Part shown: positions 4,870 to 56,531 of the stretch, in pieces | Position numbering within the stretch: the first letter of the stretch is position 1 | Layout of the letters: each line of letters begins with the position of its first letter | NCBI GenBank assembly: GCA_030789695.1 | Contig: CM061133.1 | Span: 97,793,128-97,857,127, forward strand | From: Scilla litardierei | Taxonomy: Eukaryota > Streptophyta > Magnoliopsida > Asparagales > Asparagaceae | Direction of reading: 5' to 3' | Length of the DNA: 64,000 bases | The notes under the pieces: model-generated | The model's input: the letters and a program-made list of their open reading frames with translations, nothing else | The model's database searches: none | Told to the model about the DNA's origin: nothing | Translations under genes and position numbers: made by a program

Positions 4870-6386
4870 CTATTATCATTTGTGTAGCTATAATATAGGT
4901 TACTGTCACATCTTGCGATTTATAAATAAACGTTAGCTGTAATGTGTGTAGCATGTCAGCTTTTACTTTATAACTTAGTACATGTATATCTATTGAATTT
5001 GTGTGAATAAGGTTAGATGGTATACATATTTAGGTTTATAATGGATTCCTTAAGCTTGATGTCGCGTATCCGTTGGCACAAATATATCACGCACCTTGTA
5101 CGTCAGCTCGGATACCCAACTCGCGTCACTACAGGTAAGTGTGCAATTAAATATGAATTTTTGAAGTTGATGAATAATTGCGTCTTTTTACTTTAATGTG
5201 TGTATCTTGCAAAACGTACTTATAATGCCGCATGAAAATGTCTTTATAATGTTCTAGACCGAAATGTGACACTTTGACATATTACCCGACGAGAATCAAA
5301 TTTTAAAACATTGGCGAAGTAAATCGTTTACTGTAAATTGTTCATTAAACCAACCTGTTTGACATCCCTTGTATTTATTGTAAATGTTGTGAAACAAGAA
5401 CATTAACAACATCTAAGTCATGTACATCTTACTTGAGAGTGGCATCGTGAAATCGTGCGCCTCAAAGGCGAACTCGTGATATCGTGATGTCGTGTGAGTC
5501 GACTAAGCCGGCTCGTGTTCCGGCAAAACTTTGGGGTGGGGTTAGGGTTGAGCGGCCACTGGGCGTATGAAAGGTACTCTCCTCAAGAGCACCACCCGAC
5601 GCGGTGGGTTAGTGTCAATCACGGTAAGCCCCCGTGAGAGGAACGACCTTCTCATCACGACCTAAAGGCGAGAACCCTAGATTAGATGAGAATTATTGAC
5701 ATGGACATTGCAACGCTAACTTGGACATCTTGAAATTGAAATGCTAACAAACTCAGTGAAATCTTAACTTTGATCTTGCAACTGTTTAGAACTGCATGTT
5801 AGGGATGTTGTTTCCGTTTCTATATATTTGTTAACGTTAAATTGTTGCAGTCACTTTTCTTAAAATATTGATGCTTCTAAAATTCATATATTTGTCATAC
5901 ACTTTGCCTTGGGATGCTAACTCTTCTTGCAGACCCCTAGCTGACATACATTCATGTTTGTGGATGTATGTCAGATTCAGCGCTTGAGTACCCGGAGGAC
6001 GCATACGAGACGCCAGACTTAGAGAGTCAGGAATTCGCACCTGACGCAGTGCCCCTTCCAGCTGAGGACTATAGGACCCCTCTACCACTAGTTTTCTTAG
6101 TTTACTTTCAGTCACTTGCTGTAGTTGTGTACGTTCTTTTGTCACTACTTTAGCCCAGCTGTGGCTTATTGTTTAATTTGGTGTACGAACACTATGTATC
6201 TCTGGATGTGGCTTTTCACCTCTTTAATTTAATGAAATGTTTTCTGATTGTTCTGATTCGCAAATGCAAGGACCTCTTCTGTGTTTTTATCACAGACGCT
6301 TATTGAACTCGAGCTTCACCGCTCCAGTTCAAGCGGACCGCGTAACGCTCTCGCTTCTGGTGTCTTTTGGGAAGCGGGGCGTTACA

Positions 6387-14398: not shown

Positions 14399-14837
14399 AC
14401 ATGCACAAGAAGTCGCGAATCGAAGCGCGATGCTTCGGGAAGGATTGTATGGACTTCTACTAAGATCCTAGAGCTAAGATAGGAGCGTTATGAAGAATTA
14501 AAACGTAAGACCTACTCAAGGCTTAACATTCTACGAAAGAAGCTTAAAGACTATAAATTAAACTTGACGATACCGTCTTTAAAAGCTTCAATCGAATCTT
14601 CATGACTTCTAAATAGGTCCATAAGCTTCAACGAAGCTTTAGGCATACGATCACATGCTTTGAAAAGTCTTGAGACGTCGTAATTGATATTCATGTGAAT
14701 TTGGCGACGATCTCCATAACTGCGCTCACAAAGTGTTAGTTCATAATATATTTATGTTTGTTCATCATCCAAAACCAAATCCGGGGAGTCTAATATCCAA
14801 CAGCAAAAACACTCAGAATGGGCATTTTCAGTGTCTC

Positions 14838-15222
14838 ACTCGGCCGAGTGAAGGAGTCACTCGGCCGACCGACGAAACCCCGCTCGGCCGGTCAGATCGG
14901 ACACGCTCCAAGCGTGCACTCGGTCGAGCATCAGAAGCCCACTGGGCCGAGTGACGTATCCCGTCCGCCCGAGTGGCACTCAGACGACGCCCCTCAAAAA
15001 GAGCCAACTTACTGTTTTTCGTCAGTCTGAGCAGCAGAAGACCCACTCGGTCGAGTGGCAATTGCCGACCGCCCGAGTGAAGATAAGCCCATCGGCCGAG
15101 TGACGACAACTCACTCGGCCAAGTGACGCCCGAAATGAAGACCCCCAAGACCCCGGATTTACTGGAAATTCTCAGGGTCTTTCACTCGGCCGAGCGACTT
15201 TTGTCACTCGGCCGAGTGAGCC
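14838..15222 (+). repeat. CACTCGGCCGAGTG palindrome array in the U3 of element A
   Basis: About ten exact or near-exact copies of the 14-bp dyad (T)CACTCGGCCGAGTG(A) lie at irregular spacing, ending about 80 bp before the TATA-like sequence. Some copies have one degenerate arm (CTCGGTCGAG, CCGCCCGAGTG). The same array recurs in every LTR of B and C (43920-44310, 53850-54235, 55856-56240) and upstream of ORF2 in all three elements. Confidence 0.92.
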
Positions 15223-15515
15223 GAGCGCCTGTAGCGGAAAACACGATTTTAGAGCTACGCAGGTGTAGTTTGGTCACGAATTTTTGGTCAGTTTTGGGGG
15301 GTATTTAACCCCTGATTCTAACCTAGTTTAGGGAGATTTTTCCTTGCTTTTGGTAGCCTTTTTAGATTAGAATTTTTAGAGTTTTATTCTTGTGATTGGA
15401 GAGGAGAGAAAAGTTCTATTTGGTTGGATTCTTGGAAAGCTACATTGGTTTGTCTTCCTCTCCATTAAAAATCCTATTTTTATTGTTGTTTTGAATATTG
15501 CCATGAATTTCATTG

Positions 15516-15843
15516 CTATTTCTATTGATTATTCTTTTATTAGCAATATGATTTGTGAGTAGTCTTAACATCTTAGGGCGTGGGGACGAACCCTACGAGC
15601 CCAATTTCTGATTTGTGATGATTTGGTAGAACTATTGCTAGAATTGCTATTAGGGTTAGTTTGGGATCGATATATTACGCTATTTCTATTGATTATTCTT
15701 TTATTAGCAATATGATTTGTGAGTAGTCTTAACGTCTTAGGGCGTGGGGACGAACCCTACGAGCCCAATTTCCGATTTGTGATGATTTGGTAGAACTATT
15801 GCTAGAATTGCTATTAGGGTTAGTTTGGGATCGATATATTACG
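15516..15843 (+). repeat. 164-bp tandem duplication in the 5' LTR of element A
   Basis: Units 15516-15679 and 15680-15843 differ at only two visible positions (aacatct/aacgtct and tttctg/tttccg). The 3' LTR of A (about 27577-27740) and the LTRs of B and C have a single unit. The duplication therefore arose in this LTR after insertion, or during its last round of reverse transcription. Confidence 0.9.
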
Positions 15844-15862
15844 GATAGTTAGGTGTTCATAC

Positions 15863-16165
15863 CGATTGGGATTTGCAAGAGATTGGATCCCAATTCGATA
15901 GGAAACCCTAGAAATCCGAATTGGGTTGAAATTGAGTTTCCGTAGTATCGGTTTGCAAGATATTGGACTGATACTAGGGTTCTCGGTTGCAATTCTATAC
16001 CGATACCCGTTTGCAAGAGATTGGACGGGTAAGATCTATCCCAACCTAGGTCGCAGCCCGAGTTTGCACGAGAGTGGGCTCGGGATGCGATTGAACGATG
16101 ACGTTGATCCTAATGCTAGCTTGCCTAGGCTAGGGTTTGCAAGAGATTGGACCCGAACCTAGGTT
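15863..16165 (+). repeat. Five-hairpin array with constant loop (element A, 5' LTR)
   Basis: Five hairpins share the loop TTTGCAAGAGATTGGA but have different stems. H1: ATTGGGA/TCCCAAT (15865-15894). H2: TAGTATCGG/CTGATACTA (15943-15976). H3: TACCCG/CGGGTA (16004-16031). H4: CGCAGCCCGAG/CTCGGGATGCG (16052-16089). H5: GGG/CCC plus an outer CCTAGG/CCTAGG helix across a 3x3 internal loop (16124-16163). The loop changes slightly in H2 (one base) and H4 (TTTGCACGAGAGTGGG). The array lies downstream of the TATA-like box and so would be in the RNA leader. Confidence 0.9.
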
Positions 16166-16535
16166 CGCTATAGACCGGCAACAGCGCGAGAGCGTGAGCT
16201 AGGTTTTACATTCAGTTGCAACTAGTTCACCTGAAATACTACCCTAGCAATCGTGATACCGATGAATCACAATGACGAGATACGGTGAGTAGCGGGGATT
16301 CCCTATTCCCTAGGCATCTTTATTTTATTTTATATCTCTTTGCATTATTTGACGATTGTGACAACATTGCCGAAAGGCAAATTCATACTCTTCTGTCCCT
16401 ATAGCCAGGTTGTTCGGAGAAGGCACTGTCATACGTCCTCCCTGTGTTCGATACCCGCTCGTCGCTACACCGTGCGCTTGCGGTAAAACTACACAGTCGC
16501 TCTTTAGGGTGTACGCCCGGGCGCGATCAAGTTTT

Positions 16536-16554
16536 TGGCACCGCTGCCGGGGAG
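16536..16554 (+). other. Primer-binding site of element A (Asp-tRNA type)
   Basis: TGGCACCGCTGCCGGGGAG lies six bases after the LTR. The B element has TGGCGCCGTTGCCGGGGAG, the usual Athila-type site complementary to Asp tRNA; A differs at two positions. Confidence 0.85.
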
Positions 16555-16670
16555 GTGATTGTGTTTGATCCTATCACCCTAGATAGTTCTTTCTTTTTGT
16601 TTTATTTCTTTATTTTTATCTAACCCTTCCATTGTGCTAATCGCTTCTTTGAAACTTTGTTTTCCCATGC

Positions 16671-19430
16671 ATGTACACGAGATCCACAGCGGACCCCACC
16701 GATATATTGTTTGATCCTGAGATCGAGCGTACATTGCGGAGAATTAGAGCGGAGAGGAGACTCGATACGAAAGGGAGGTTTATGAACGTCCGGGAGACGC
16801 CTGAAGAGTTAGCGGCAAGAATGGCGAGGATTATTTCCATTCGAGATAGGCTCTGGCCTAAGACTTCCTCCACAACCTCGTCCATAGCCATACCGGAGTT
16901 GGCGGCCGCCAAGAATTTTGAGTTGAAGACTGGGCTTGTGGTTCTGATGCAGCAGGATCCATTTCATGGGAACGCCCATGAAAATCCCCACTACCACATC
17001 CATCTCTTCCTATCAAAGTGCGCCACCTTCCAGATGCCGGGCGTTACCCTAGATGCCATCAGACTGTGCCTCTTCCCCTTCACATTAAAGGATAAAGCTC
17101 TTTATTGGTTGAGGACGCAAGCTGAAGGAGTCTTTACCACATGGGACGAGTTGGCGAGCGCGTTTATTGACAAGTTCTATCCGCCCTCCAAGACGGTAAA
17201 GATTAGGAGTGCTCTCATGTCCTTCAAGAAAGTACCTCAAGAGACACTCTACGAGGCTTGGGAGCGCTTCAAAGACCTGCAGCATCAGTGCCCCAACCAT
17301 AGCATTGAAGATTGGGAGCTAGTCCATAGCTTCTACAATGGTCTCGAACCGGGGACCAAGCAGATTATTGATGCCGCGGCAAATGGGGCCATCCTATCAA
17401 AGACTCCCGACGAAGCTACGACCTTAATTGAGGAGATGGCCTCGAACAATCAACAATGGGGTGACGAGCGAGGACACTCTTCGTCCTCCTTGAAGCCATC
17501 TAGCATCTATGAGGCCAAGGCCGTAGCGGAGCTGACCAACAAGTTTGATTCTCTCCACAAGGTGGTGGAGAGACTGGAGAAATATATTACGGAGCCCCAA
17601 GGAACCCCTTCCACATCCACACCAACAAATCAAATGTGTGATTGGCAAGACCAATCTCAAGCTATGTATTTGGGAGGAGAACAAGGAGAGGGATCTTTGG
17701 AGCAAGTTCAATACGTCGCAGGGAACCAAGGATATTGGGCAAATCCGGCCACTAGAAACCATCCCGGTTTCTCCTATGCCAACAATGATGGAGCATTGAA
17801 CCCCCCGCAACAACCACCTTACCAAGCTCGACCACCACCATAACAACAACAACATTATCCACCGAGGGGGCCTCCGCAACAAAATTTCCCCCCAAAGCAA
17901 CAAGTGGGGCCCTATAGGCCGCCTGGATACAATCAAGGGTGGAGAAATCCAAACCCTCCACAAGCTCAACAACGTTCCGACTTTGAAGCTAGAGTGGAGG
18001 AGTTTATGGCCGAGCAGAAGAAGACTAATGCCTCCTTGAAGGCGAGCCAAGATTCCCTTGCAACCGTTGTAGGCCAAATCTCGGAGCAACTTGCGTTGCT
18101 CAATCGAAATAGTCAACAGTTGCCGGCTCAACCCGAGCAAAACCCACGGGGCACCACCGGGCATATCAACGCCGTGGTTGCAGTTACTACGAGAGGCGGG
18201 AAGGATACCACCCCCGTCATGATCCCAACCGAGGAGCCCGTGGTGGAGAGAGTAGAGCCAAGTGAGCCGGTCATTGAAGTTGAGAGGGAGAAAGAGTCGC
18301 AAGGGGAAGAAAAGTCCAGAGCGGAGAAACTGATTGAAGAGAGGCGTTTTATGCCACCGATCCCATTCCCTCAGAGGCTTGCTAGAGCAAAGATGGAGAA
18401 ACGGCTAGCGAAGTTTCTCGAGTATTTGAGGGGGGTAAGCCTCAATATCCCCTTCCTCGACGCTATCGTGGAAATCCCGACATACGCCAAGTTCCTAAAA
18501 GATTTGATTACGGGAAGAAAGAGGAAGGAGAAAATCATGCTCGCTGAGGAAGGGACTTGGTTCACCAAGAGAGAGAAGGAGCCCGCCAAATTCAAAGACC
18601 CGGGGAGTTTCCGAATTCCTTGCACCTTAGGCGGCGTCCCTCTACAAAAGGCGTTAGTGGACTTAGGGGCTAGTGTTAGCCTCATGCCTCTCTCTATGTT
18701 CCGAAGACTAAATACCGGCACAGAATTGAAGCCTACCGACATGCGGATACAACTAGCCGATGGTCGGATCACAAGGCCGGTAGGGATCGCAGAGGACATC
18801 CCGTTGCAAGTCCCGGGGGGCATATGTTTGCCATGCGACTTCGTGATCATGGATGTCAAGGAGGAGGGAGATACGTCGCTAATACTTGGACGCCCGTTCA
18901 CCGCCGGGGTCATTATCGACGTACGAGAAGGAACTCTAACATTGAACGTCGGCAACATCGAGGTGGAGCTTCATATACCCAAGGCAATGAAACACATGCC
19001 TTATCATGAGGAGCTGGACTATATGGACCTCCTTGACGAGGTTATTGAGGAGGCGATCCCCCGTTCCATTGGCACAATATTCAAAGAAGACGTCGAAGAA
19101 GGCCCGGATTTGGGCCAAGAAGAGATGATGAATGAACCCCCCGACCCCTCCATGGAAATTGATCAAGGCGACGCTGATGTCGCCCAAATACAAGAGCTCT
19201 GCAATCTCTCAAAGATGAAGTCTCCGAAGAAAGCCCCGCCGATATGGAAATCGGTGTCACCGGTGAAGCCGAAGCCCGGAGCAAGAACTAGCTTGGGGGA
19301 GCCACCCCCCAACACTACCCGAGACAAAGGAGCACTGAGGAAGTACGCGCCGCCACAACATCCAAATCCGAGCGCTCTTCCAAACAAATTCGACGGGTGC
19401 ATCTCATATGCACCCAATATCCCGCATTAA
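16671..19430 (+). pseudogene. Athila-like gag-protease, one nonsense mutation (element A)
   Basis: A single frame of about 920 codons runs from the ATG at 16671 (MYTRSTADPTDILFDPEIER) to a stop at 19430. It is interrupted once by TAA at 17841-17843, where copy C reads CAA. Retrotransposon-gag residues occur around 120-230 (FPFTLKDKALYWL, TTWDELASAFIDKFYPP, LYEAWERFKDLQHQCP). A Gln/Pro-rich linker follows (about 360-430), then the aspartic protease with catalytic ALVDLGASVSLMP and the flap-side LILGRPF...DVREGTLTL. Where related gags have a zinc knuckle, this one has only MCDWQDQSQAMY. The protease lacks two or three residues after LGRPF that B and C keep. The frame ends SYAPNIPH with no RT following. 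It would form particles and mature Gag for a partner element. Confidence 0.9.
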
Positions 19431-19762
19431 ATTGAAAATCAAAGGGGGTCGAGCTCACGACCTTAAACGAGCGCTTGTCGGGAGGCAACCCGACGGTTAT
19501 CGCTTTATTTTTACTTTTTCCTTTATTTTTGTTTTAGAAATTATTAGTGTTTTGAGTCGTTTTCCTGAAAAATTCGTGATAACAGGTCCTATTTTTCTTT
19601 GACATGAGAGTAGAAAGGGATATCTATCATTAGGAGGATGAACAAGGCGACAAAGAGCGCTCCAGGAATGCGCTCGATGCTTAGGAGGAGGATGAAATCG
19701 ACTGGAGGAAGAAAAACAGAGATTAGAGCCCAAACGAAGCCAAACAACAGAAAAACAGGGTT

Positions 19763-20104
19763 CACTCGGCCGAGTATACTAGTCACTCGGTCGAGTACAA
19801 AGTTCGTCCGCCCGAGCGGCACACGAACGAGGGAAGTCTGCTGTACCCAACTCTCTGTTTCTTTTCTTGATTTCAATATAATTGCCACTCGGCCGAGTAT
19901 ATAACTTCACTCGGCCGAGTGAAACTGATACACTCCTAGGGCGAGTATTACCGAGTAGCTTGAGCCACTCGGTCGAATGGACTTTTACCACTCGGCCGAG
20001 GGTGGCAAAGCCACTCGGCCGAGTCGTAAGCGGGGAGGAATTTTCAAAAAAATATTTCAGTTACGTCACTCGGCCGAGTGACATAGTCACTCGGCCGAGT
20101 CGTA
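19763..20104 (+). repeat. Palindrome array upstream of ORF2 (element A)
   Basis: About ten copies or degenerate copies of CACTCGGCCGAGTG lie within 340 bp of the region between the gag-PR stop and ORF2. It is the same motif as in the LTR U3. The last copy ends about 10 bp before a TATA-like sequence at 20111. Confidence 0.9.
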
Positions 20105-20110
20105 ATTTTC

Positions 20111-20120
20111 CCTATTTAAG
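20111..20120 (+). promoter_or_regulatory. Candidate internal promoter for ORF2 (element A)
   Basis: CCTATTTAAG directly follows the palindrome array and is followed by a GC-rich stretch (20120-20340) resembling a leader. Copies B (49121-49130) and C (61206-61217) have stronger TATA boxes at the same place. ORF2 begins about 550 bp downstream. Its function is inferred from position. Confidence 0.5.
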
Positions 20121-20666
20121 CGCTGCGGGCTCGGGCGCGGAATACAAAGCGTTATTTTCCAGCGCCCGAGCCCGCGCCCCTCTCTCTTTCCCGAGCGCTA
20201 CGACCGCCATACCCACTCGCCTGACCGCCTCGCCCCGCCGCCGCGCTCGGCCACCCACCGCCGGCCGAAGCTGCCGCGCCTCCGCCCGAGTCGCCACCGG
20301 CGACCTCCTTGCCGGCCGAGCTCCGGTACCCCTATTTTGCCTATTTCCTCCTCTTTCTTGTATTTTTTTGACGATCCGCGCACTAATCCAGCCCCAAATT
20401 CAAATTAACTTCATTATCTATCTATTATACCCCTAACCCCCCATACATTTTGAATATTACTCGCTGATATCTTCGTTTGATGTGCCGGGTATATTGGGGA
20501 GCTTAGGGCAGCCCAGGGGAGCTTCCGGGGAGCGATTTTGGCTTCGTGGAGGCGTCGTCTTCACACGCATCCACTTCTTTGCTCTCGCGGCGTGTCACGG
20601 TATACTCGTTCCATTTATTTTTGAACGCCGTATTTTTACTACTTTTGGTGAGCACCCGGGGCCCAC

Positions 20667-22866
20667 ATGCCGCCCCGGACACGGCCACGGTCGAGGAGAG
20701 CTTCCGCCAAGCGGAAGCGGCCGGATGAGCCCGGCCCCTCCCACGAGGTGGAGGACTCTCCTCCGCCTACACCACCACACCCCGTTCACCCCGCACAGCC
20801 TGCAGACCCCGCACACCCCGCACAGCCTACAGAGCCCACTCACCCCGCACAGCCACTCCATGTCGACCCATTACCACCACCGGCTCCACTTGTCGGGCCG
20901 CTGGGGATTACGTTCCGGGACGACGCACACCACGTCGTTTTTGAGCACATTTCCCAGCGCTCGATTGTACCCTCCAGGTTCGCACACCTTGCAGACCTAG
21001 GACACCTGGGGGTACTTGAGGGGATGCTCACGTTGTATGACAACGTGGGCTGGCGAGATTTTTTCCAAGTGTCGGCGGACACCTTTGTCCGTCCGACACT
21101 TGAGGTTCTTAGTTCTATTGCCCAGACCGACGAGGGATGCTCGTTTAGGTTTATGGACCGGGAGTGCCAGGTCACTCTTGGTATGATGAGAGCATTCTTT
21201 TCGTGGCCCGATGTCCCCGGGGCCGACCGTGGTTACGCCCCCACTCACATTCCCCCTCCTTCCTTCGATTCACACGCTTTCTGGGCCCGGATCACGGGTT
21301 TACCAGCTGCCTTTGACCCTAGTAGGGCCAAGGCCTCGGCCATCGTCCATCCCTGCCTCCGCATAGCTCAGCGCCTTATGGCGACTACCTTTTTGGTGAG
21401 GTATGAGCCTGGGACGATGTCCACGCCAGAGCTTTATATGCTCTATGTGATGACGCGTCCCAGAGTTCTAGCTAGGGAGAGTGACAATTTGGTCCCCACC
21501 GTCGTGATTGATATTGCGAGCTGGTTTTTGGACCACATCATCGTATCGGTGGGCGCTCGCTCACCGATATGTTGCGGCGGTCTGATCACCCTGCTCACCC
21601 TGATGACCGGCGAGGACCTACCTGCCGACTTGCGTCGTCCACCGGGCCCCACTTCACTGTCTATAGACGTCATGGCCCGGATGAAGATGCTTCGTCCGCA
21701 CGGCCAGCGACACTAGGTTTGGTTGCATGGTCCCTACGGTGCTGATTACATGATCCTTCCGAGCCCAGCTCAGACACAGATAGCACCAGCACAGGTGGAC
21801 TGGCTTCCGGCGATGGATCTCCTAATCCCAGCCGCCTACGTGCTCGAGGCCGAGGAGGCTGAGCAGGCTGGGCAGGCACACGCTGCACCCTTTGACCCCG
21901 TGGCCCCTCAGCAGCCTGATATTTCTGCTGCTCCCGACACCTCTGTCCACACTTCTGCCGGTGTCGGGAGTACACTCGCTGAGACCACCTCCACCACCAC
22001 CCCTGCCACCACCACTCCCACCACAGCTGGCCCTCTATCCGTTGAGCCCGCACCCCTCTCTCTTTCCCGAGCGCCCACCTACTTTTGTTGAGAGTGGAGA
22101 GCCTTCTTTCGCTACGGTCGTGGAGACCATGGCCAGTATGATCTCCGCTGGGATTTCACCTTTTGGACCCCACACTGCCTCCCCAGCGGTTGTCACTTCT
22201 GTCTCCACCGCAACCGTACTTTCTGAGAGTGTCGTGACGTCTGTCCCCACTTCTGTGTCACTGGCCTCTCTTGCCGCCTCGTCGCCACTTTTATACTCCA
22301 CTTCCGCTGTTGCTGCTTCCACCTCACACCAGCCTGCGCCCCTGCCTCGCACTGAGGCTAGGCCCCCACTTGTGAGCACAGCACCCTTCCTCCACATGCC
22401 TGCTGAGCCCATCCACTACACCACCCGAGTTCGCCAGCCCCATCATGCACAACACAGACATGTGCCTCCCTCTGCACCACCTCACCCCGACACTGTACTT
22501 CAGAGCATTCGTGCTCTCGAGGGGGCGGTGAGTGGCCTCAGAGGTGACCTCAGGACCATGTCTGCTACCGTCACCGCTATGGCCAGCCGCTTCGACCTAC
22601 TTCTGGGCATTCACTATTGCCTCACCCAGATTCTCGACCGGCTTCCTCGCGTACCCACACCCACCCAGCAGGTACCCACCCCCACTCCTGCACACACCCA
22701 GCCTGCTACCACACCCACACCCACCCAGCAGGTACCCACCTCCACTCCTGCACACACCCAGCCTGCTACCACACCCACTACCACACCCACCCAGCAGACT
22801 GTTCCCCAGCCACCACCACCACCACCTCCGCCTCAGGACGGAGACAGTGCAGCCCCACCCTCTTAG
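20667..22866 (+). pseudogene. Athila-like ORF2 (ATHILA ORF-1-like accessory protein), disrupted copy A
   Basis: It starts MPPRTRPRSRRASAKRKRPD, a basic nuclear-targeting-like N-terminus, followed by a Pro/His-rich linker. A conserved globular region of about 230 residues follows (PLGITFRDDAHHVVFEHISQ ... FMDRECQVTLGMMRAFFSWP ... ICCGGLITLL), then a low-complexity Ser/Thr/Pro region and a short helical segment (SIRALEGAVSGLRGDLRTM). TAG at 21714-21716 replaces a Trp codon kept in B and C, and a frame change occurs near 22060. A direct repeat of about 60 bp (about 22660-22780) duplicates the PTQQVPT...PATTPT segment. The globular part resembles the plant ATHILA ORF-1 family; that match is from memory. 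There is no evidence that it is an envelope glycoprotein. Confidence 0.78.
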
Positions 22867-24804
22867 GCACCCTTGATGCCATTTATCTTTTATGCTGTCA
22901 TGCTGCCCATCTCTGCTTGGTCCTGATGATTTTTACCCACCCCCTCCCCTCACTATTTTGGGTCCATTTTCTGATCATATCTTTCTATATCATTTTTGGG
23001 AGAGAGGGAGAGATTTTTGGTATCACACTCTTATATCTGATTCACTCTTATATCTGCATGCATCATGTCCGCATCATATTTTCGTTTTGTTATTTTTATT
23101 TCTTTTTCATCCTGCATGCATCCTCACCTACCCCTCACATTACACGTCTCTCGGTGTGCCACACTTCGCATATTGAGGACACTGTGCACTTTAGCTTGGG
23201 GGAGTGAGTTCTCACGTTCTTTTCGATTTACCACCTTTATTTTTAGTTTTTTCACGCCATTTTCCGCATTTGCACTCATTTTCATCACTTTTTCTTTTTT
23301 ACCATGCATCACGTTTTCCTTATTTTCTTTGTGTGCTGCATTGTATTTAGTTTTATTTTCCCTCTTTATCTTTATTTCTTTTCATCTCATGCTAGAGATG
23401 ATTTTTCTGTGATGATGATGACGTGGAGTTAGCTTTCTCTATATGCATGCTATATTTGTCATGTCTTAGCTTTTATTTCTGATATCATATGCTGTGATCT
23501 ACCTCGCATTTAGAGATAGTAACCCACACTTTCTCCGCATGAAAATGGATGAAATTTTATTATTAGCTGAGTCTGAATATTCATATGTATGCTATCGCAG
23601 AAAATACACCAAGATTCACGCATTGAATGCTTATATCTGGAGTACCGTTTTCTTTTCCTATATCACTTCTATTTGCATGATTTGTACACTTCACTTCAGG
23701 ATGATTAAATGATGTTAGCTATGATAAATCTGGATTAGTATTGCTTTTTTGTGATCGAAACTGAGTGGATTAGATTACCCTGCTGAAGTTGTCGTGCACG
23801 TCTTATAGAGTGAACTCAGAGACATATTTATTTCTTTCTCCACATATCTTAAACATTAATTCTCTATTTTAAAATCATTGGTGAATCTCCCCTTAGCGAT
23901 TCTAGTATTTGGCATTTCCCCCGTTATTAAAATCCTAGCTCCAAATTTCCCCAAACTAAAAAGAAAAAGAAAAATTCTTGTATATCCTTCTTTCTCTTAG
24001 ATTTGGGATCATTGTGTATATATGCTATTAAAAAAACAAAAAAAGAGAGAAAAAGAAAAGAAAAAAAAAGAAAAGAGAAAAGAATCTCAATAAACGATCC
24101 CATCTCATATACTCTCTCTTTCTTCCCTCTTTTTGTTTTTATTTTTATTTTCTTTTGCATTTGGAGCTTCAAAAGAAATGAGGAATGTAAATACACTTTT
24201 GTATATGCCACCCCGCTTATAGATAAGCATGGGGGAGAGAATCCAATGATGTGTGAGAGAGTGACTACTTGACGGTGCACGACAACCTAGGCTAAGTAAT
24301 ATTCTGTACTCGGTGAGATTGTTTTAGCTTCACGAAATCCAGAAATCTACGCCTAGCATTCATTTCATGAAATCCACGCTTTTCTATTCTTTCTATTCTA
24401 TTGCGTGATATTCTTATACTCCTCATAGAAAGCATTCAATTGAAAAGTGTGTGATCTGCGATATTGTATACCGCTTTAAATGATTCAGACGATGTTAATC
24501 TTAGAATTATTCCGTTTTTCATGCTATATCAATATTCTTGGGTTTTCTATCTCTATTTGCACCATTATACTATGATATCGAAATAAAAGTCTTTGACAAG
24601 TATTTTACATTCGGTGCATGCTATATGAGTAAGCAAAACCCATGTCCTGAGAAAAATGATCTAGCAGCTTCCCTCTTCGCCTTCTTCGCTTTCTTCTTCG
24701 TTTTTTGTTTTCCGTTTTTCCGTCGTTTTCATTTTCTGAATCCACCAGGTTCGCCTTTTACTTATCTTCCTCGAGGACGAGTAAGAGGTAAGCTTGGGGG
24801 ATTT
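22867..24804 (+). other. 3' non-coding region of element A with three polypurine tracts
   Basis: No coding frame is supported. Three AGCTTGGGGGA-like purine tracts occur: 23193-23204 (preceded by attgaggacactgtgc), 24225-24238 (AAGCATGGGGGAGA) and 24790-24802, which abuts the 3' LTR and is preceded by ctcgaggacgag. The last is the functional PPT by position. A purine-rich A/G stretch lies at 24028-24082. Confidence 0.75.
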
Positions 24805-25162
24805 TGATCACTCCGTATTTTACACCTTTTTTCCGCATGTTTGCATGCCATTTAGATTGCTCAAATCATGTTTTTCACGATTTATCGACAATATTACGAT
24901 ACTTTTCACGATTTGTTGTTTTTGTCGTATTTCAGGAGATTTGGAGCGATTTGGAGTGATTCCAAGATACACCTACTCCGGAGTGTCACCGACGACTTCC
25001 CCGAGGGGTATTTTGCTATTGGAGAGGAGCGGAAGAAGAAAGAACGTCGTAGGAGCGACGAGGAGGCAAAAACACACAGAATGGGCATTTTCAGTGTCTC
25101 ACTCGGCCGAGTGAAGGAGTCACTCGGCCGACTGACGAGACCCCGCTCGGCCGGCCAGATCG
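24805..25162 (+). repeat. 3' LTR of element A, segment 1
   Basis: It starts TGATCACTCCGTATTTTAC just after the PPT and runs to GATCG, where an LTR fragment interrupts it. It contains the first palindromes (from about 25098). Confidence 0.88.
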
Positions 25163-26930
25163 TGTTGGATCTGGATCGTAGCATAGATGGGGGGTGAATA
25201 GGCTAATAAAAAATATTCGTGCAACCCACGAACAATCCCACACAGTTATAGGCACAGACAGTGCAATAAAAAAGCAATCACATAATACGCATAGATATAC
25301 CCTGGTTCGGTCGTCCCCACGACCTACTCCAGCCCCCGAAAGCAACTACTAGATAGATATGTAATCAAGTACAGCTACAATGAGTCAAGATCCCAAATCT
25401 ACTCTCACCTAGCTCGTACGCACACCACGTGCTCTACACTATCAATCTAGTCAGATGCTCTCCCTCCGTGACGACTCCCAAGTCGTCAGGTCCCCAAAAG
25501 TAACACAAAAGGTAATGTTTCCCCTACGAGGATCTAACACAACAACTACAAAAAATAATAATAAATAGTGTTTAGGAATCTCAGTTTGTGTAGCGGCGAT
25601 GTCCTCGTCTGTCAGTACGGGTCAGATCTCGTCTGACGTAGATGTAGTCTCTGATGTCCCCTCAATAGTTCGACTCCCCTCTCGATGAGACGTGCGCCCT
25701 TCGCCAAAGATTGAAACTTGCGACACCTCACCCAATTAATTTTCTCCCAACAAATCTTGTGTGCATGTGCCCAGGCTCTCTGAAATATTTCGGGTGCCAC
25801 TCAAAAATTGTATGAAACTTTCGGCTGCCCTTTTTGTGCACTACTCTTGATTGAAAGCACAGACAAAATTCCTTAGCTCTTGATAACCCTAGTCACAGGA
25901 AACAGGATGGCCGGCCTCTTGGGTTTATTGATTTGAGAACAAAAAAAATCTTTGCTGCTCTTTGAGATGTGCCTGCACAATCAAAAGACAGAAAATGTAA
26001 CCCTTTTTTTGTTAACTAAGAAAGAGGCTTACCTTGGGATTTTGTATAGGCCTGGGAATTTTTAATGAAAGCTCCTCTGAGATTTTTCAAAGCATCTAAA
26101 AGAAACAAGATTGAGAGTTCCTGATTTTAATCCATGTGTGTGTGCCCTGGGAAGATATTTTTCAAAACAAAAACAACTGGCCTTTGAAGAACCAAGTGCT
26201 CCTGTGAAATATCAACGGCCTGCAATCAAAAAACCCTCAAAAACAAACTGTTTTGAAAATCCCATGAATAAAAAAATTCGGCTGCCTTAATAACTTGAAG
26301 TCAAAGTGCTCCTGGGAAAAACAATGAAACAAAAACACAATTCGGCTCCTTTTATTTGCAACTTGTGGAGAAAAAACCTCTATGAAGAGTTCGGCTGTGT
26401 ATATTGGATGCGCCTCCAATAATTCGGCTCTATGTCACCTTTTTTTTGTTTGGCTCTTGGGAATTCTGGGTGATGTATTGATGTTTGATGACCGACTCCC
26501 CTCTACTTTTCATTTACATCATGCATCCTAGTTTTAGGTTGACGAGGCGGCGCCTGCAAAATAAAAATACACCAAAGCACAAAAATTTCTCTTTAAGGAT
26601 TAAAACAAAAACTCCAGGAGATGGCCTCTGTGAAGAATTAGAGAGGAGGTGCGGCTCTTATTTTTTGATTTTCGGCTCCCCTGTGAAATTCGGATGCCCT
26701 ATATCATAAAAAATGTGAAGGGTGCGGCTTCACAAGAGGAGTCAAATTTTCGGCCGCCACTAAAAATTCGACAGGCACCCTTGATTTTTCAAAGGGGTTA
26801 GGTCTTTTTATTTTTGAAGGAGATGCATATTAAAAATTGGCCGGCTTGGAGATATCAAAAGCACCCCACAAAAAAATGAGCAGCTCTTCTAAATGGGCTT
26901 TTGGGTTAGTGCTCTTTAAAAAAAATTGAA
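25163..26930 (-). mobile_element. SIRE-type LTR fragment inserted in the 3' LTR of element A
   Basis: On the + strand it starts TGTTGGATCTGG...GGGGGGTGAATAG, the same organisation as the reversed 3' end of the SIRE LTR at 12929; I infer a - strand LTR of a related family. Bases 25800-26760 contain about ten degenerate TTCGGCT(C/G)C motifs. No coding frame is seen. The insert is flanked by 25131-25162 and 26931-26962, a 32-bp direct repeat of the host LTR with one mismatch, instead of a 5-bp duplication. The right end has no clear CA terminus unless the repeat itself is counted. Confidence 0.6.
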
Positions 26931-28120
26931 ACCGACGAGACCCCGCTCGGCCGGCCAGATCGGACACGCTCCAAGCGTGCACTCGGCCGAGCATCAGAAG
27001 CCCACTCGGCCGAGTGACGTATCCCGTCCGCCCGAGTGGCACTCAGACGACGCCCCTCAAAAAGAGCCAACTTACTGTTTTTCGTCAGTCTGAGCAGCAG
27101 AAGACCCACTCGGCCGAGTGGCAATTGCCGACCGCCCGAGTGAAGATAAGCCCATCGGCCGAGTGACGACAACTCACTCGGCCGAGTGACGCCCGAAGTG
27201 AAGACCCCCAAGACCCCGGACTTACTGGAAATTCTCAAGGTCTTTCACTCGGCCGAGCGACTTTTTTCACTTGGCTGAGTGAGCCGAGCGCCTGTAGCGG
27301 AAAACACGATTTTGGAGCTACGCAGGGGCAGTTTGGTCACGAATTTTTGGGCAGTTTTGGGGGGTATTTAACCCCTGATTCTAACCTAGTTTAGGGAGCT
27401 TTTTCCTTGCTTTTGGCAGCCTTTTTAGATTAGACTTTTTAGAGTTTTATTCTTGTGATTGGAGAGGAGAGAAAAGTTCTATTTGGTTGGATTCTTGGAA
27501 AGCTACATTGGTTTGTCTTCCTCTCCATTAAAAATCCTATTTTTATTGTTGTTTTGAATATTGCCATGAATTTCATTGCTATTTCTATTGATTATTCTTT
27601 TATTAGCAATATGATTTGTGAGTAGTCTTAACGTCTTAGGGCGTGGGGACGAACCCTACGAGCCCAATTTCCGATTTGTGATGATTTGGTAGAACTATTG
27701 CTAGAATTGCTATTAGGGTTAGTTTGGGATCGATATATTACGGATAGTTAGGTGTTCATACCGATTGGGATTTGCAAGAGATTGGATCCCAATTCGATAG
27801 GAAACCCTAGAAATCCGAATTGGGTTGAAATTGAGTTTCCGTAGTATCGGTTTGCAAGAGATTGGACCGATACTAGGGTTCTCGGTTGCAATTCTATACC
27901 GATACTCGTTTGCAAGAGATTGGACGGGTAGGAACTATCCCAACCTAGGTCGCAGCCCGAGTTTGCACGAGAGTGGGCTCGGGATGCGATTGAACGATGA
28001 CGTTGATACTAATGCTAGCTTGCCTAGGCTAGGGTTTGCAAGAGATTGACCCGAACCTAGGTTCGCTATAGACCGACAACAGCGCGAGAGCGTGAGCTAG
28101 GTTTTACATTCAGTTGCAAC
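26931..28120 (+). repeat. 3' LTR of element A, segment 2
   Basis: It resumes the host LTR with the 32-bp repeat and carries the rest of the palindrome array (to about 27290), GTATTTAACCCC and a single copy of the 164-bp unit. The five-hairpin array lies at about 27763-28066. It ends in the target duplication GCAAC (28116-28120) of Copia1. Here H2 has the perfect stem TAGTATCGG/CCGATACTA, while in H5 one loop base is lost. Confidence 0.88.
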
Positions 28121-28727
28121 TGAAGGATCCTGCCAAAACAGAGTTAGGATCGATAACATGAAGTTTAGACTTACGCTTGCGTACGCGGCACGGTAGTCTA
28201 CGAACTTCGCCTTCGGATTCGCCACGACGGATCGAGTCTACTCACGAACGGAGTAAGGCTACTAATCCCACAATCTAAATCTCTATTTTAGATTAAGAAC
28301 TTGGATGGAGGGAGAGGAAATATTTCTGCAGAGCTTCGCTATGAAGAAGATGCATGCATGAATTTCATGCAAAATGTGTAAGGAAAATGGCTACCCTTGG
28401 GTCTTATTTATAGCCCCCAAGGTAGTTATTTTAGGGTAAGTTGTTCCTTTGGAACAACTTAATTAAGGTGTACCATGATACATGGCACATTATAAGCTTA
28501 AGTTGTACCATATGCATGGTACAACATAAGCTTAAGATATTCCCCCTTTATTAGCCATATGTCGCATGCACTTATGCATATATAATGCGACTTTCCCGCT
28601 CATACAGAGATCCTCTCCGCAAGGGAACAGATTCCCTTTGCACATGACTTCGTGTGCGCGACGTTCGAGGTCCGTATTCCCTCGTACATCCCCCACAAGG
28701 GTGTACAAACGTCTTCCATATCCAACA
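28121..28727 (-). repeat. 3' LTR of Copia1
   Basis: On the - strand it starts TGTTGGATATGG at 28727 and ends GGCAGGATCCTTCA. The TATA box CTATAAATA is at 28413-28405. Upstream of it (28438-28525) are the palindromes AAGTTGTTCC-ttt-GGAACAACTT and GTTGTACCAT-atgc-ATGGTACAAC. Confidence 0.94.
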
Positions 28728-33391: not shown

Positions 33392-33540
33392 TTTACTTTT
33401 AAAATGCTGCAAAAGACACAAAACCGAAGGTTCGATCAAAAACATTGCATAAAAAATTCTTAAAATATAACTCCCACTTGAAATGATAATAGAATATCCC
33501 ATTTGGATAGTTCTAAAATTCAAATCCCACTTGGAATTAT

Positions 33541-35371: not shown

Positions 35372-35372
35372 A

Positions 35373-42781: not shown

Positions 42782-44600
42782 TGATCGCACCCCGGATACA
42801 CACCCGGAGCGACGGTTGTAGTTTTACCGCAAGTGCACGGTGTAGCAGCGAGCGGGTTATCGAACAAAGGGAGGACGAATGACCGTGCTTGTTCCAATCA
42901 ACCTGGCTATTTAAGAAGAGAGAAATTTGCCTTTGGCGATCCTGTCACAATCGTCAGACAAAGTACGGAAATATCAAATCAAATAAAGAACGTCTAGGGA
43001 ATGGGGAATCCCCGCTACTCACCGTATTTTGTAAATGTGGTTCGTCGGTATCAAAATTGCTAGAATAAGATTTTGGATGAACTAGTTGCAACTGAATGTA
43101 GAACCAAGCTCACGCTCTCGCGCTGTTGCCGGTCTATAGCTATCCTAGGTTTGGGTCCAATCTCTTGCAAACCCTAGCCTAGGGAAGCTAGCATTAGGAT
43201 CAACATCATCGTTCAATCGCGCACCGAGCCCAATCTCTTGCAAACTCGGACCGCGACCTAGGTTGGGATAGTTCCTACCCGTCCAATCTCTTGCAAACGG
43301 GTATCGGCATGGAATTGCGACCGGAAACCCTAGTATCGGTCCAATCTCTTGCAAACCGATACTTCGGAAATTCGATTCCAACCCAATTCGGATTTCTAGG
43401 GTTTCCTATCGAATTGGGATCCAATCTCTTGCAAATCCCAATCGGTATGAACTCCTAGCTATCCGTAGTAAATCGATCCCAAACTAATCCCTAACAACGA
43501 TTCTAGCAAAATTTCTACCAATTCATCACAAATATGAATTTGGGCTTGTAGGGTTCATCCCCACGCCCCAAGACGTGGAGACTACTCGCAATTCATAGCA
43601 CAAACACAAGAATAATCAATGAAATAAACAATATAATTCATCACAATATTGAGATAAGCAATAAAAATAGAATTTTTAGAGAAGAGAGAGGCAAACCAAT
43701 GGAGTTCTTCAATTAATCCAACAAAAATCCACTTTTGTCTCCTCTCCAATCACAAGAATAAAGCTAAAAAGTAAACCTAAAAAGCTGCAAAAAATCTCAG
43801 AGAAAGCTCTCTAAAACTAGGGTAAAAACAGGGGTTAAATACCCCCCAAAATCGTCCAAAAACTGTGACCAAAGTACCCCTGCGCAGCCTGAAATCCGCA
43901 ATTTTCGCTATAGGCAGCGCGTCGCACTCGGCCGAGTGACAAAGTCGCTCGGCCGAGTGAGAAACCCTGTAATTTTCCAGTAAGTCTTGATCTTCAGGGG
44001 TCTTCACTTCGGGGGCGGCTCGGCCGAGTGAGTTGTTGTCACTCGGCCGATGGCTTCTTGGTACTCGGGCGGTCGGGATTATCCACTCGGCCGAGTGGGT
44101 CTTCTGAAGCTCAGGCAGCCGAAAAACAATAAGTTGGCGATTTTTGAATGGCTTCGTCTGGGCGCCACTCGGGCGGACGGGATCTCGTCACTCGGTCGAT
44201 GTGGTCTCCGTCGCTCGGCCGAGTGCACATATAAATCGTGTCTGATCTGGTCGGCCGAGCGGTGTCTCGCTGGTCGGCCGAGTGACTCCTTCACTCGGCC
44301 GAGTGGGACACTAAAAATGCCCAAACAGTTTATTTTGGCCTCCTCGTCGCTCCTGTGACGTTCTTTCTTCGTCCGCTCCTCTCCAACAGCAAAATACCCC
44401 TCGGGGAGGTCGTCGGTGACCCTCCGGAGTAAGCGCATCTCGAGATCACTCCAAATCGCTCCAAATCACCTGAAATGCGACAAAAACAACAAATCGTGAA
44501 AAGCATCGCAATATCGTCAATATATCGTGAAAAACATGATTTGGGCGATCTAAATGGCATGCAAACATGCGGGAAAAAAGTGTAAAATAAGGAGTGATCA
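42782..44600 (-). repeat. 3' LTR of element B (1,819 bp)
   Basis: On the - strand it starts TGATCACTCCTTATTTTAC at 44600 and ends GGGTGCGATCA at 42782. It holds the palindrome array (43920-44310), GGGGTATTTAACCCC (about 43845-43831) and all five hairpins (43145-43440). Confidence 0.93.
43145..43440 (-). repeat. Five-hairpin array with constant loop (element B, 3' LTR)
   Basis: All five loops read TTTGCAAGAGATTGG(A/G) on the - strand. The stems are ATTGGGA/TCCCAAT, AGTATCGG/CCGATACT, TACCCG/CGGGTA, CCGAG/CTCGG with an outer CGCG/CGCG helix, and GGG/CCC with an outer CCTAGG helix. The outer helix of the fourth differs from that of element A (CGCA/TGCG) but still pairs. Confidence 0.9.
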
Positions 44601-52713: not shown

Positions 52714-54524
52714 TGATCGCACCCCGGATACACACCTGGAGCGAGGGTTGTAGTTTTACCGCAAGTGCACGGTGTAGCAGCGAGCGGGTTATCGAACACA
52801 GGGAGGACAAATGACCGTGCTTGTTCCAATCAACCTGGCTATTTAAGAAGAGAGAAATTTGCCTTTGGCGATCCTGTCACAATCGTCAAACAAAGTACGG
52901 AAATATCAAATCAAATAAAGAACATCTAGGGAATGGGGAATCCCCGCTACTCACCGTATTTCGTAAATGTGGTTCGTCGGTATCAAAATTGCTAGAATAA
53001 GATTTTGGATGAACTAGTTGCAACTGAATGTAGAACCAAGCTCACGCTCTCGCGCTGTTGCCGGTCTATAGCTATCCTAGGTTTGGGTCCAATCTCTTGG
53101 AAACCCTAGCCTAGGGAAGCTAGCATTAGGATCAACATCATCGTTCAATCGCGCACCGAGCCCAATCTCTCGGACCGCGACCTAGGTTGGGATAGTTCCT
53201 ACCCGTCCAATCTCTTGCAAACGGGTATCGGCACGGAATTGCGACCGGAAACCCTAGTATCGGTCCAATCTCTTGCAAACCGATACTTCGGAAATTCGAT
53301 TCCAACCCAATTCGGATTTCTAGGGTTTCCTATCGAATTGGGATCCAATCTCTTGCAAATCCCAATCGGTATGAACTCCTAGCTATCCGTAGTAAATCGA
53401 TCCCAAACTAATCCCTAACAACGATTCTAGCAAAATTGCTATCAATTCATCACAAATATGAATTTGGGCTTGTAGGGTTCATCCCCACGCCCCAAGACGT
53501 GGAGACTACTCGCAATTCATAGCACAAACACAAGAATAATCAATGAAATAAACAATAGAATTCATCACAATATTGAGATAAGCAATAAAAATAGAATTTT
53601 TAGAGAAGAGAGAGGCAAACCAATGGAGTTCTTCAATTAATCCAACAAAAATCCACTTTTTGTCTCCTCTCCAATCACAAGAATAAAGCTAAAAAGTAAA
53701 CCTAAAAAGCTGCAAAAAATCTCAGAGAAAGCTCTCTAAACCTAGGGTAAAAACAGGGGTTAAATACCCCCCAAAATCGTCCAAAAACTGTGACCAAAAT
53801 ACCCCTGCGCAGCCTGAAATCCGCAATTTTCGCTACAGGCAGCGCGTCGCACTCGGCCGAGTGACAAAAGTCGCTCGGCCGAGTGAGAAACCCTGTAATT
53901 TTACAGTAAGTCTTGATCTTCAGGGGTCTTCACTTCGGGGGCGGCTCGGCCGAGTGAGTTGTCGTCACTCGGCCGATGGCTTCTTGGTACTCGGGCGGTC
54001 GGGATTATCCACTCGGCCGAGTGGGTCTTCTGAAGCTCAGGCAGCCGAAAAACAGTAAGTTGGCGATTTTTGAATGGCTTCGTCTGGGCACAACTCGGGC
54101 GGACGGGATCTCGTCACTCGGCCGATGTGGTCTCCGTCGCTCGGCCGAGTCACATTAAATCGTGTCTGATCTGGTCGGCCGAGCGGTGTCTCGCTGGTCG
54201 GCCGAGTGACGCCTTCACTCGGCCGAGTGGGACACTAAAAATGCCCAAACAGTTTGTTTTGGCCTCCTCATCGCTCCTGTGACGTTCTTTCTTCGTCCGC
54301 TCCTCTCCAACAGCAAAATACCCCTCGGGGTGGTCGTCGGTGACCCTCCGGAGTAAGCGCATCTCGAGATCACTCCAAATCGCTCCAAATCACCTGAAAT
54401 GCGACAAAAACAACAAATCATGAAAAGCATCGCAATATCGTCGATATATCATGAAAAACATGATTTAGGCGATCTAAATGGCATGCAAACATGCGGGAAA
54501 AAAGTGTAAAATAAGGAGTGATCA
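52714..54524 (-). repeat. 5' LTR of element B (1,811 bp)
   Basis: It is nearly identical to 42782-44600. It has an 8-bp deletion at about 53166-53170 that removes part of the loop and one arm of the fourth hairpin, leaving four intact hairpins. Confidence 0.93.
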
Positions 54525-54713: not shown

Positions 54714-56531
54714 TGATCGACCCCGGGCGTACACCCGGAAGAACGGTTGTAGTTTTACCGCAAGTGCACGGTGTAGCAGCGAGCGGGATATCGAACACAG
54801 GGAGGACGAATGACCGTGCTTGTTCCAATCACCCTGGCTATTCAAGAAGAAAGATTTGCCTTTGGCGATCCTGTCACAATCGTCAGACAAAGTGCGGAGA
54901 TATCGAATCAAATAAAGAACGCCTAGGGAATGGGGAATCCCCGCTACTCACCGTATCTCATAAATGTGGTTCGTCGGTTCCAAAATTGCTAGATTGAGAT
55001 TTTGGATGAACTAGTTGCAACTGAATGTAGAACCAAGCTCACGCTCTCGTGCTGTTGCCGGTCTATAGCTATCCTAGGTTTGGGTCCAATCTCTTGCAAA
55101 CCCTAGCCTAGGAAAGCTAGCATTAGGGTCAACATCATCGTCCAATCGCGCACCGAGCCCAATCTCTTGCAAACTCGGCTCGCGATCTAGATTGGGATAG
55201 TTCCTACCCGTCCAATCTCTTGCAAACGGGTATTGGCACGGAATTGCAACCGAAAACCCTAGTATCGGTCCAATCTCTTGCAAACCGATACTACGGAAAT
55301 TCGATTCCAACCCAATTCGGATTTCTAGGGTTTCCTATCGAATCAGGATCCAATCTCTTGCAAATCCCGATCGGTATGAACTCCTAGCTAACCGTACTAA
55401 ATTGATCCCAATCTAATCCCTAGATATCGATTCTAGCAAAATTTCTACTAATTCATCACAAATATGAAGTTGGGCTTGTAGGGTTCATCCCCACGCCCCA
55501 AGACGTGGCGACTACTCACAATTCATAGCAAGATCACAAAAATAATCAATGAAATAAGCAATAGAATTCATCACAATATTGAGATATGCAATAAAAATAG
55601 AATTTTTAGAGAAGAGAAACACAAACCAATGGAGTTCTTCAATTAATCCAACAAAAAATCAAACTTTTTCTCCTCTCCAATCTCAAGAATAAAACTAAAA
55701 AGCTAATCTAAAAAGCTGCAAAAAATCTAAGGAGAAGCTCTCTAAAACTATGGTAAAAACAGGGGTTAAATAGCCCCCAAAATCGTCCAAAAACTGTGAC
55801 CAAAATACCCCTGCGCAGCCTGTTTTCCGCAATTTTCGCTACAGGCAGCGCGTCGCACTCGGCCGAGTGACAAAAGTCGCTCGGCCGAGTGAGAAACCCT
55901 GTAATTTTCCAGTAAGTCGGGGCCTTCAGGGGTCTCTACTTCGGGGGCGGCTCGGCCGAGTGAGTTGTCGTCACTCGGCCGATGGCTTCATGGTACTCGG
56001 GCGGTCGGGATTATCCACTCGGCCGAGTGGGTCTTCTGAAGCTCAGGCAGCCGAAAAACAGAAACTTGGAGATTTTTGAAGGGCTTTGTCTGGGCGCCAC
56101 TCGGGCGGACGTGATGTCTTCACTCGGCCAATGTGGTCTCCGTCGCTCGGCCGAGTGCACAGGTAAATCGTGTCTGATCTGGTCGGCCGAGCGGTGTCTC
56201 GCTGGTCGGCCGAGTGGGTCCTCCACTCGGCCGAGTGGGACACTAAACATGCCCAATCTGCTTATTTTGGCCTCCTCGTCGCTCCTGCGACGTCCGTTCT
56301 TCTTCCGCTCCTCTCCAACAGCAAAGTACCCCTCGGGGAGGTCGTCGGTGACCCTCTGGAGTAAGCGCATCTCGAGATCACTCCAAATCGCGCCAAATCA
56401 CCTGAAATGCGACAAAAACAACAAATCGTGAAAAGCATCGCAATATCGTCGATATATCGTGAAAAACATGATTTGGGCGATCTAAATGGATGCAAACATG
56501 CGGGAAAAAGGTGTAAAATAAGGAGTGATCA
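54714..56531 (-). repeat. 3' LTR of element C (1,818 bp)
   Basis: On the - strand it starts TGATCACTCCTTATTTTAC and ends GGGGTCGATCA. It carries the palindrome array (55856-56240), GGGGCTATTTAACCCC and all five hairpins (55073-55374). In H1 the stem is ATCAGGA/TCCCGAT, one pair changed on both sides relative to B (T-A to C-G) and one changed on one side only. Confidence 0.92.

Follow-up and report, generated by a model that had tools for sequence, protein, structure and literature searches.

The five-hairpin structure at 15863..16165 of the 64-kb stretch of DNA analysed here (the window) is almost certainly real and maintained. Its units share a nearly invariant tip, and each stands on a stem of its own. 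Inspection of the sequence placed the array where the first-pass annotation had located it. According to that annotation, the 16-mer TTTGCAAGAGATTGGA occurs five times, each time between arms that are complementary to each other and different from the remaining four pairs. In the 5' LTR of element A, the exact 16-mer was found three times (15872, 16010 and 16136), and the other two occurrences are inexact, with one mismatch in the H2 unit (15952) and three in the H4 unit (16063). The complementarity of the arms was confirmed: the contiguous pairs beside the unit number 8, 9, 6, 6 and 3 in H1 to H5, compared to 0-3 for every non-matching combination of arms. Runs of at least 6 contiguous pairs occur at 0.5% of window positions, with the arrays counted in. 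Because the inner run of H5 is only 3 bp long, this hairpin rests on its outer CCTAGG helix.

The array is present in all five LTRs of the window, as previously stated, except that the B 5' LTR (52713-54524, minus strand) has no H4 after an 8-bp deletion. This copy has a substitution in the H5 bulge (53088), and one base is missing from the H5 at 28035 in the A 3' LTR. Two compensatory changes reported earlier hold true, namely the outer helix of H4, which is TCGCA/TGCGA in A versus TCGCG/CGCGA in B and C, and one H1 pair, which is T-A versus C-G in the third element (C). At up to three mismatches, the 16-mer has 25 matches in the window versus 0.85 expected; 24 are inside arrays and one is outside (13579). 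The structural version of the motif gave 21 matches, on both window strands and all inside arrays. A search of the 64 kb against 4227 Rfam families yielded no match at the gathering cut-off.

Table 1. Positions of the hairpins, arrays, elements and associated features in the window.
Feature	Position	Strand	Remarks
H1, A 5' LTR	15864..15895	+	16-nt unit 15872-15887, 8-pair arms; outer arm pairs weaker in group 2
H2, A 5' LTR	15943..15976	+	unit 15952-15967; tetraloop GAUA, versus GAGA in A 3' LTR
H3, A 5' LTR	16004..16031	+	unit 16010-16025; stem of 6 pairs
H4, A 5' LTR	16051..16090	+	unit 16063-16078; CAC/GUG tip; outer stem in two parts
H5, A 5' LTR	16124..16163	+	unit 16136-16151; GGG/CCC and outer CCTAGG helix
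Array, A 3' LTR	27763..28062	+	units 27771, 27851, 27909, 27962, 28035
Array, B 3' LTR	43144..43443	-	units 43156-43435
Array, B 5' LTR	53076..53367	-	H4 gone through 8-bp deletion
Array, C 3' LTR	55073..55372	-	units 55085-55364
Element A	5' LTR 14803-16529; 3' LTR spread over 24805-36291	+	3' LTR split by insertions
Element B	LTRs 42781-44600 and 52713-54524	-	
Element C	3' LTR 54714-56531	-	runs off window
TATA box TATTTAA	15303..15309	+	conserved in five window LTRs
Primer-binding-site region (presumed)	16533..16553	+	just after A 5' LTR; sampling anchor in genome
gag ORF of A	16671..17843	+	PF03732; no zinc knuckle found
ATHILA ORF-1 family ORF of A	20667..21716	+	PF03078

The hairpins and their tip

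For four of the five hairpins of A, RNAfold predicts an outer stem followed by a U-A pair, a U.G pair, a UG bulge on the 5' side, the paired segments CAA/UUG and a tetraloop; H4 of A is predicted in a slid register. An open loop of 16 nt was ruled out, as the 16-mer is mostly stem with a tetraloop in these folds. The earlier view of the 16-mer as a single-stranded and fully constant loop fails on both counts: CAA is predicted to be paired with UUG, and the tip varies between CAA/UUG and CAC/GUG. The tetraloop is GAGA, i.e., of the GNRA type, with the exception of GAUA in H2 of the A 5' LTR. The CAC/GUG version replaces CAA/UUG in H4 of A, where the pair is kept and the TTGCAA palindrome is broken. 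It should be noted that the two versions differ in their predicted registers: for CAA/UUG units the tetraloop register is better by 2.0 kcal/mol, whereas for CAC/GUG units the slid register with a six-base loop is better by 1.1 kcal/mol. The covariation of the tip involves unit positions 7 and 12, which are paired in the tetraloop register and unpaired in the slid one. Units with TTGCAC (the C-G tip) make up 73 of 419 and are found in both H4 and H5.

Across these 419 units the UG bulge is kept in 413 and the GAGA loop in 400, and a single change was counted on internal branches for the first four positions of the unit and the four of the loop combined. Local folds contain the full predicted hairpin in 272 of the 419 units (13 of 83 for the H4 units). 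Whole arrays were more stable than dinucleotide shuffles in 11 of 11 cases tested (z between -3.5 and -6.75). When the A array is folded as a whole, its best structure has another pairing in place of H1; the outer stem of H1 has a probability of 0.88 in the B 3' LTR and 0.99 in C, and is weak in some other arrays. In the first of the two groups of array-bearing elements described below (group 1), the next spacer offers an alternative partner to the 3' arm of H1, e.g., 15888-15901 with 15912-15935 in A (9 bp, -14.5 kcal/mol). Such a switch between H1 and the spacer was rejected as a conserved feature: the group 1 mean is -12.5 kcal/mol, and in group 2 the value for its own combinations is -7.0 kcal/mol versus -7.4 for cross-group combinations. 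Directly after H5, at 16175-16200, there is a CGC-GAGA-GCG hairpin without the UUUG bulge, which is among the best-conserved stretches between the groups.

Covariation of the stems in genomic copies

The exact 16-mer is present in 139,488 copies (70,207 + 69,281) in the 3.68-Gb assembly, versus 0 copies of the reversed control. At five per array, and if all of them are in arrays, this number corresponds to about 28,000 arrays or more; thus, the mobile element that carries the array likely has tens of thousands of copies. Genomic loci were sampled using the region just after the A 5' LTR (Table 1), which we take to be the primer-binding site (PBS), as an anchor, and the hairpin was not used. 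There are 22,766 PBS places in the genome, of which 100 were taken; 91 of these are covered by 90 loci, and one locus (L123), cut at the PBS, was dropped, leaving 89 usable loci, all within the initial 11.6 Mb of a single contig. The array was found in 58 of the 89 PBS-anchored LTRs (57 with five units and one with four), and 31 LTRs have no unit at up to three mismatches. Two loci, L093 and L094, share one array, so that the 58 loci represent 57 distinct arrays. All 58 array LTRs form one LTR cluster, and the 31 array-less LTRs belong to 11 other clusters; two of the latter loci partly share sequence of the array family (317 bp aligned in L122 and 376 bp in L150). Sets of hairpins with the same loop and different stems were not found in the 31 array-less LTRs, and the structural motif is absent from them, too. 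Because these 31 LTRs of other families share the PBS and do not have the array, the array is not a packaging signal of Athila elements in general. Outside the plant genome, the exact 16-mer was found in 29 viral contigs with one match each and none with two, which by our own estimate, made without a control, are chance matches; the Gag query matched no viral contig, and the array query matched no phage record.

For the analysis of covariation, 101 arrays were collected, 16 of which are identical to another one, so that 85 distinct arrays were tabulated. Longer flanks were available for 66 of the 85, and 64 taxa were included in a tree built from the LTR sequence outside the array (the B 5' LTR and L113, with units missing, were left out). 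The 81 arrays with all five units were used in the test of pairs that are variable on both sides. It should be noted that the rows are not all independent because the set includes LTRs that are paired in the same element.

The proposal that pairing itself is maintained was borne out by the 68 pairs defined from A, both in the covariation on the tree and in the column-pair test. These pairs are standard in 4160 of 4352 cells (95.6%), compared to 14-50% when the arms are slid by 1-3 bases. Double Watson-Crick replacements were detected in 14 cases (8 on internal and 6 on terminal branches), versus 0-2 in the slid registers. When columns were treated independently, the 13 double replacements compared to a simulated mean of 3.0 and a maximum of 8 (400 simulations). 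Among pairs with both sides variable, at least 90% standard pairing was found in 8 of 11 structure pairs versus 308 of 3,896 background pairs (p 2e-7, 81 arrays). For example, the third pair of H2 is C-G in 46 and T-A in 39 of the 85 arrays, the third pair of H3 is C-G in 46, T-A in 35 and T.G in 4, and the fourth pair of H3 is C-G in 45, T-A in 36 and T.G in 1, with 3 mismatches. The inner pair of H4 is C-G in 58, A-T in 21 and T.G in 3 of 83 arrays, with one mismatch, and the inner pair of H5 is A-T in 65, C-G in 15 and T.G in 1 of 81 arrays. Some of the pairs derived from A fail in many copies, namely the seventh (56 of 85) and eighth (65 of 85) pairs of H1, the fifth (66), sixth (43) and ninth (65) pairs of H2 in the same 85 arrays, and the eighth position of H4 (55 of 83 arrays).

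We also performed a blind G-test of all pairs against a null from 60 tree-based simulations, in which none of the 46,360 pairs reached E <= 0.05. The two highest-ranked pairs both belong to the structure: the H4 inner pair (E 0.37) came first and the H5 inner pair (E 0.73) second. The blind test is low in power because most changes separate two big clades. The proposed pairs covary around a nearly invariant bulge and tetraloop. Taken together, there is strong evidence for the proposed structure, and the blind test has little power for discovery.

The type of non-canonical pairs is informative regarding the molecule that folds. Cells of the outer stems contain G.U in 226 cases versus A.C in 62. 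In a core that was picked after inspection of the table, the numbers are 190 and 28, compared to 408 and 293 in the slid control. On internal branches, changes from Watson-Crick to G.U outnumber those from Watson-Crick to A.C (21 versus 7, p 0.013); on terminal branches the numbers are 53 and 41 (p 0.26). The ratio of pairing-keeping to pairing-breaking changes is 29/16 on internal versus 59/74 on terminal branches (p 0.025), and G.U against all mismatches shows no difference between internal and terminal branches (p 0.13). Since a DNA dyad would not prefer G.T over A.C, the excess of G.U points, with moderate strength, to folded sense RNA rather than a DNA dyad.

One module in two element types

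The array is carried by two types of element whose bodies are unrelated. One contains gag, protease and ATHILA ORFs; in the other, which is shorter, neither gag nor pol was recognised. Group 1 comprises the window elements and 30 of the 58 sampled loci (one array counted twice); the two arrays of one element are about 10 kb apart. Its window copies have gag, protease and an ATHILA ORF; PF03732 was detected in A and B, and PF03078 in A, B and C. As judged by these Pfam matches to the gag domain and the ATHILA ORF, the array-bearing family is Athila-like. No reverse transcriptase or integrase family was detected by Pfam in the scanned ORFs of the three window elements, of which C is cut by the window edge; because a Gypsy-type reverse transcriptase and integrase are missing from these ORFs, the family would be a pol-less member of Athila at best. 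The internal regions (16530-25161, 44600-52713 and 56531-64000) look non-autonomous although the family is hugely amplified. The earlier statement that Gag has no zinc knuckle was corroborated by Pfam and by a pattern search, which found no CCHC in either Gag ORF (A or B); the C ORF and the ORFs that follow gag in A and B yielded no CCHC either. The most basic 30-residue window of the Gag has a net charge of only +5. For the Gag homologues, no zinc knuckle was among the Pfam domains of 120 of 674, and one homologue carries a CCHC name.

Group 2 includes 28 of the 58 sampled loci. Some of its elements have 5.7-5.9 kb between arrays, and the LTR pairs of these are 96.9-99.0% identical over the part compared. 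Two internal regions of this group (L166 and L167) match the window only at the LTR edges and the PBS in blastn comparisons, and their six ORFs have no Pfam family, with no gag or pol recognised. These two bodies contain a long acidic ORF (442 residues in L167), for which a protein search found no homologue and blastp found no match to group-1 proteins. In comparisons between the two groups, identity is 82.5% in the hairpins (0.4% gaps) and 75.5% in the spacers, compared to 56.8% (6.6% gaps) in the remainder of the final 1.1 kb of the LTR. When two group-2 LTR stretches were compared directly with the A LTR, the matches were mainly in the array module and in the PBS-bearing end of the LTR. The unit spacing is (80, 58, 53, 73) in 24 of 30 group-1 arrays and (80, 57-58, 53, 72) in 22 of 27 group-2 arrays among those listed; in group 2, the array lies at varying distances from the PBS. 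Inside pieces of four more array elements, with 10 of 17 element-strand ORFs scanned, yielded no polymerase family, and one weak ATHILA match was below the cut-off.

Predicted leader position and candidate role

Because the array lies downstream of the TATA box, it is predicted to be inside the RNA leader; the placement in the leader made in the first-pass annotation is thus probably correct, as judged from the position of the TATA box. A TATA-like box is present 340-450 nt upstream of H1 in 29 of 30 group-1 and 27 of 28 group-2 LTRs. The predicted leader of A is 1.3 kb long and has 11 upstream ATGs, and the array ends about 0.5 kb before gag.

We give even weight to the proposal, built on sequence analysis, that the array is a multivalent packaging signal in the predicted leader that Gag would bind. 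The array would be part of the genomic RNA, given the TATA box, and the outer stems would be interchangeable supports for one knob (the UG bulge, 3 bp and the GAGA loop) that is presented five times at set distances. Gag of the gag-carrying type would assemble on these knobs, and the type in which gag was not recognised would keep the array to be packaged in trans. A structured signal beside the PBS end, kept by a type with no recognised Gag, fits packaging in trans, and packaging gains indirect support because the module is kept by a type with no recognised gag or pol. Since no reverse transcriptase or integrase domain was detected in the sampled array-bearing elements, the polymerase would need to come from another element. 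Several observations point against packaging: the absence of a zinc knuckle from Gag and its modest charge, the empty blind test, the slid register of the CAC/GUG units, the local folds in which the full hairpin is missing (above all for H4), the H1 that does not form in A and the array-less LTRs that share the PBS. Moreover, no pol-bearing partner with the array was found among the elements sampled. If Gag binds the array, it would have to do so in another way because it has no zinc knuckle.

Alternatively, a host RNA-binding protein on the array might export or stabilise the unspliced RNA, with Gag not involved. Some retroviruses have a constitutive transport element for unspliced RNA. The repeated hairpin with its asymmetric bulge, the pairing maintained in sense RNA, the retention of the array by both element types and the Gag that has no zinc knuckle would all fit a host protein; however, no specific sign of export was seen, and only one LTR family among those sampled uses the array, and we consider this explanation unlikely. 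The array might instead steer gag translation from the long leader as an internal entry or shunting structure. The length of the predicted A leader and its upstream ATGs speak for such a function, which is nevertheless distinctly improbable given the 0.5 kb between the array and gag and the equal retention of the array in the second type, in which gag was not recognised. Dimerisation by kissing loops at the self-complementary TTGCAA, which had been suggested in the first-pass annotation, draws on the presence of this hexamer in most units, and is not supported by the folds, in which CAA is paired with UUG. The C-G tip (TTGCAC...GTG) argues against it because this tip breaks the palindrome and keeps the pair, and it is found in H4 and H5 (73 of 419 units); dimerisation of this kind appears extremely unlikely.

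Two further alternatives concern DNA. The units might be palindromes for a transcription or chromatin factor, in which case RNA pairing would be a by-product. LTRs often hold palindromic regulatory repeats (PMC10760457), and in the array LTRs themselves CTCGGCCGA palindromes recur upstream of the TATA box. The prevalence of G.U over A.C (226 versus 62 cells; 21 versus 7 changes on internal branches) and the location of the array downstream of the TATA box oppose this explanation and make it very unlikely. Arms could be kept complementary without selection by hairpin-templated correction, i.e., strand switching in imperfect palindromes. Matched double changes are possible at once by this process, and 6 of the 14 double replacements are on terminal branches. 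Under such correction G.U pairs would vanish, yet they persist in large clades (H1), and the conserved bulge, tetraloop and spacing are left unexplained; we regard it as highly improbable.

The packaging proposal can be compared to several known systems. One is the set of packaging and dimerisation signals in the leader of barley BARE1 and BARE2. BARE2 is unable to make Gag, yet it is reported to be packaged and to have kept the packaging signals (PMC3735527). The likeness is in a plant LTR element with no Gag of its own that keeps the signals of its partner, whereas in our case no Gag was recognised; BARE1 and BARE2 are Copia and not Gypsy elements, and no hairpin array is described in the part of that paper available. 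In human parechovirus and hepatitis B virus, dispersed packaging signals consist of a short motif on varied stem-loops, several per RNA (PMC5431903, PMC7612645). The same motif on varied stem-loops is found in the array, and the RGAG motif (PMC7612645) happens to fit the A-GAG of the tip; however, the viral signals are spread across the genome and are bound by coat or core protein in tests, whereas the hairpins of the array lie within 300 nt, and in the window the motif is in LTRs only and is not spread over the whole element. The SL3/Psi hairpin of HIV-1 is a leader hairpin whose tetraloop is purine-rich and whose lower stem, with U:G, is weak, and zinc knuckles are the usual, although not universal, reader of retroviral packaging hairpins (PMC7599994). 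The array hairpins resemble SL3 in their predicted leader position, purine-rich tetraloop and weak U:G lower stem, and differ in that SL3 is not five copies of one tip and is read by zinc knuckles, which are absent from the Gag of the array family.

Among plant elements, the nearest case that we found is that of maize Sirevirus LTRs, which contain repeated palindromes with the constant stem CACCGGACNNNGTCCGGTG; for maize Ty3 elements that study reports no obvious structural peak (PMC10760457). Repeated palindromic structures in plant LTRs are common to Sireviruses and the array family, but the stem is constant in the former, whereas in the array the stems differ and the tip is constant. Soybean Diaspora belongs to the same broad Athila lineage, as judged by the ATHILA ORF and Gag family of the array elements; its Gag has a CCHC zinc finger, unlike the Gag of the array family, and no leader hairpins came up for the terms searched in the available text (PMC1142308).

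It is a tentative possibility that the array acts as an RNA passport, in which five GNRA-tipped hairpins on interchangeable stems with nearly fixed spacing would be read by a Gag that has no knuckle and would allow co-packaging of tens of thousands of copies with unrelated bodies. To our knowledge, little is known about the choice of RNA for packaging by plant Gypsy elements and about how their non-autonomous relatives ride along. If true, the passport would be without precedent as a repeated-hairpin packaging signal among plant Gypsy elements. Our literature search, which left most subscription papers outside, found no Athila packaging signals, no conserved covarying hairpins in plant retrotransposon LTRs and nothing on point regarding hairpins in the Athila LTR or leader. 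A compact, repeated and covarying hairpin on two unrelated bodies is a concrete candidate for a cis signal, for which short RNAs and Gag suffice as a test system, and the genome offers thousands of natural array variants for reading selection.

The LTRs have several other features. Upstream of the TATA box, the CTCGGCCGA palindromes (14820-15240 and the corresponding stretch in the remaining LTRs) differ from the leader hairpins in having a constant core. Between the TATA box and the array, the A 5' LTR contains a tandem duplication (15504-15855, about 176 bp) that is absent from the A 3' LTR. Downstream of the array, the splice-donor-like GGTGAGTA (16284-16292) is present in 19 of 30 group-1 LTRs and 1 of 28 group-2 LTRs. 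The A 3' LTR is interrupted by a young Copia-type element (28121-35979) that has LTRs at 28121-28727 and 35373-35979 with 99.8% identity and a gag with a zinc knuckle. A direct repeat of 277 bp (1-277 and 6110-6386, 99.6% identity) possibly represents LTRs or repeats of another element.
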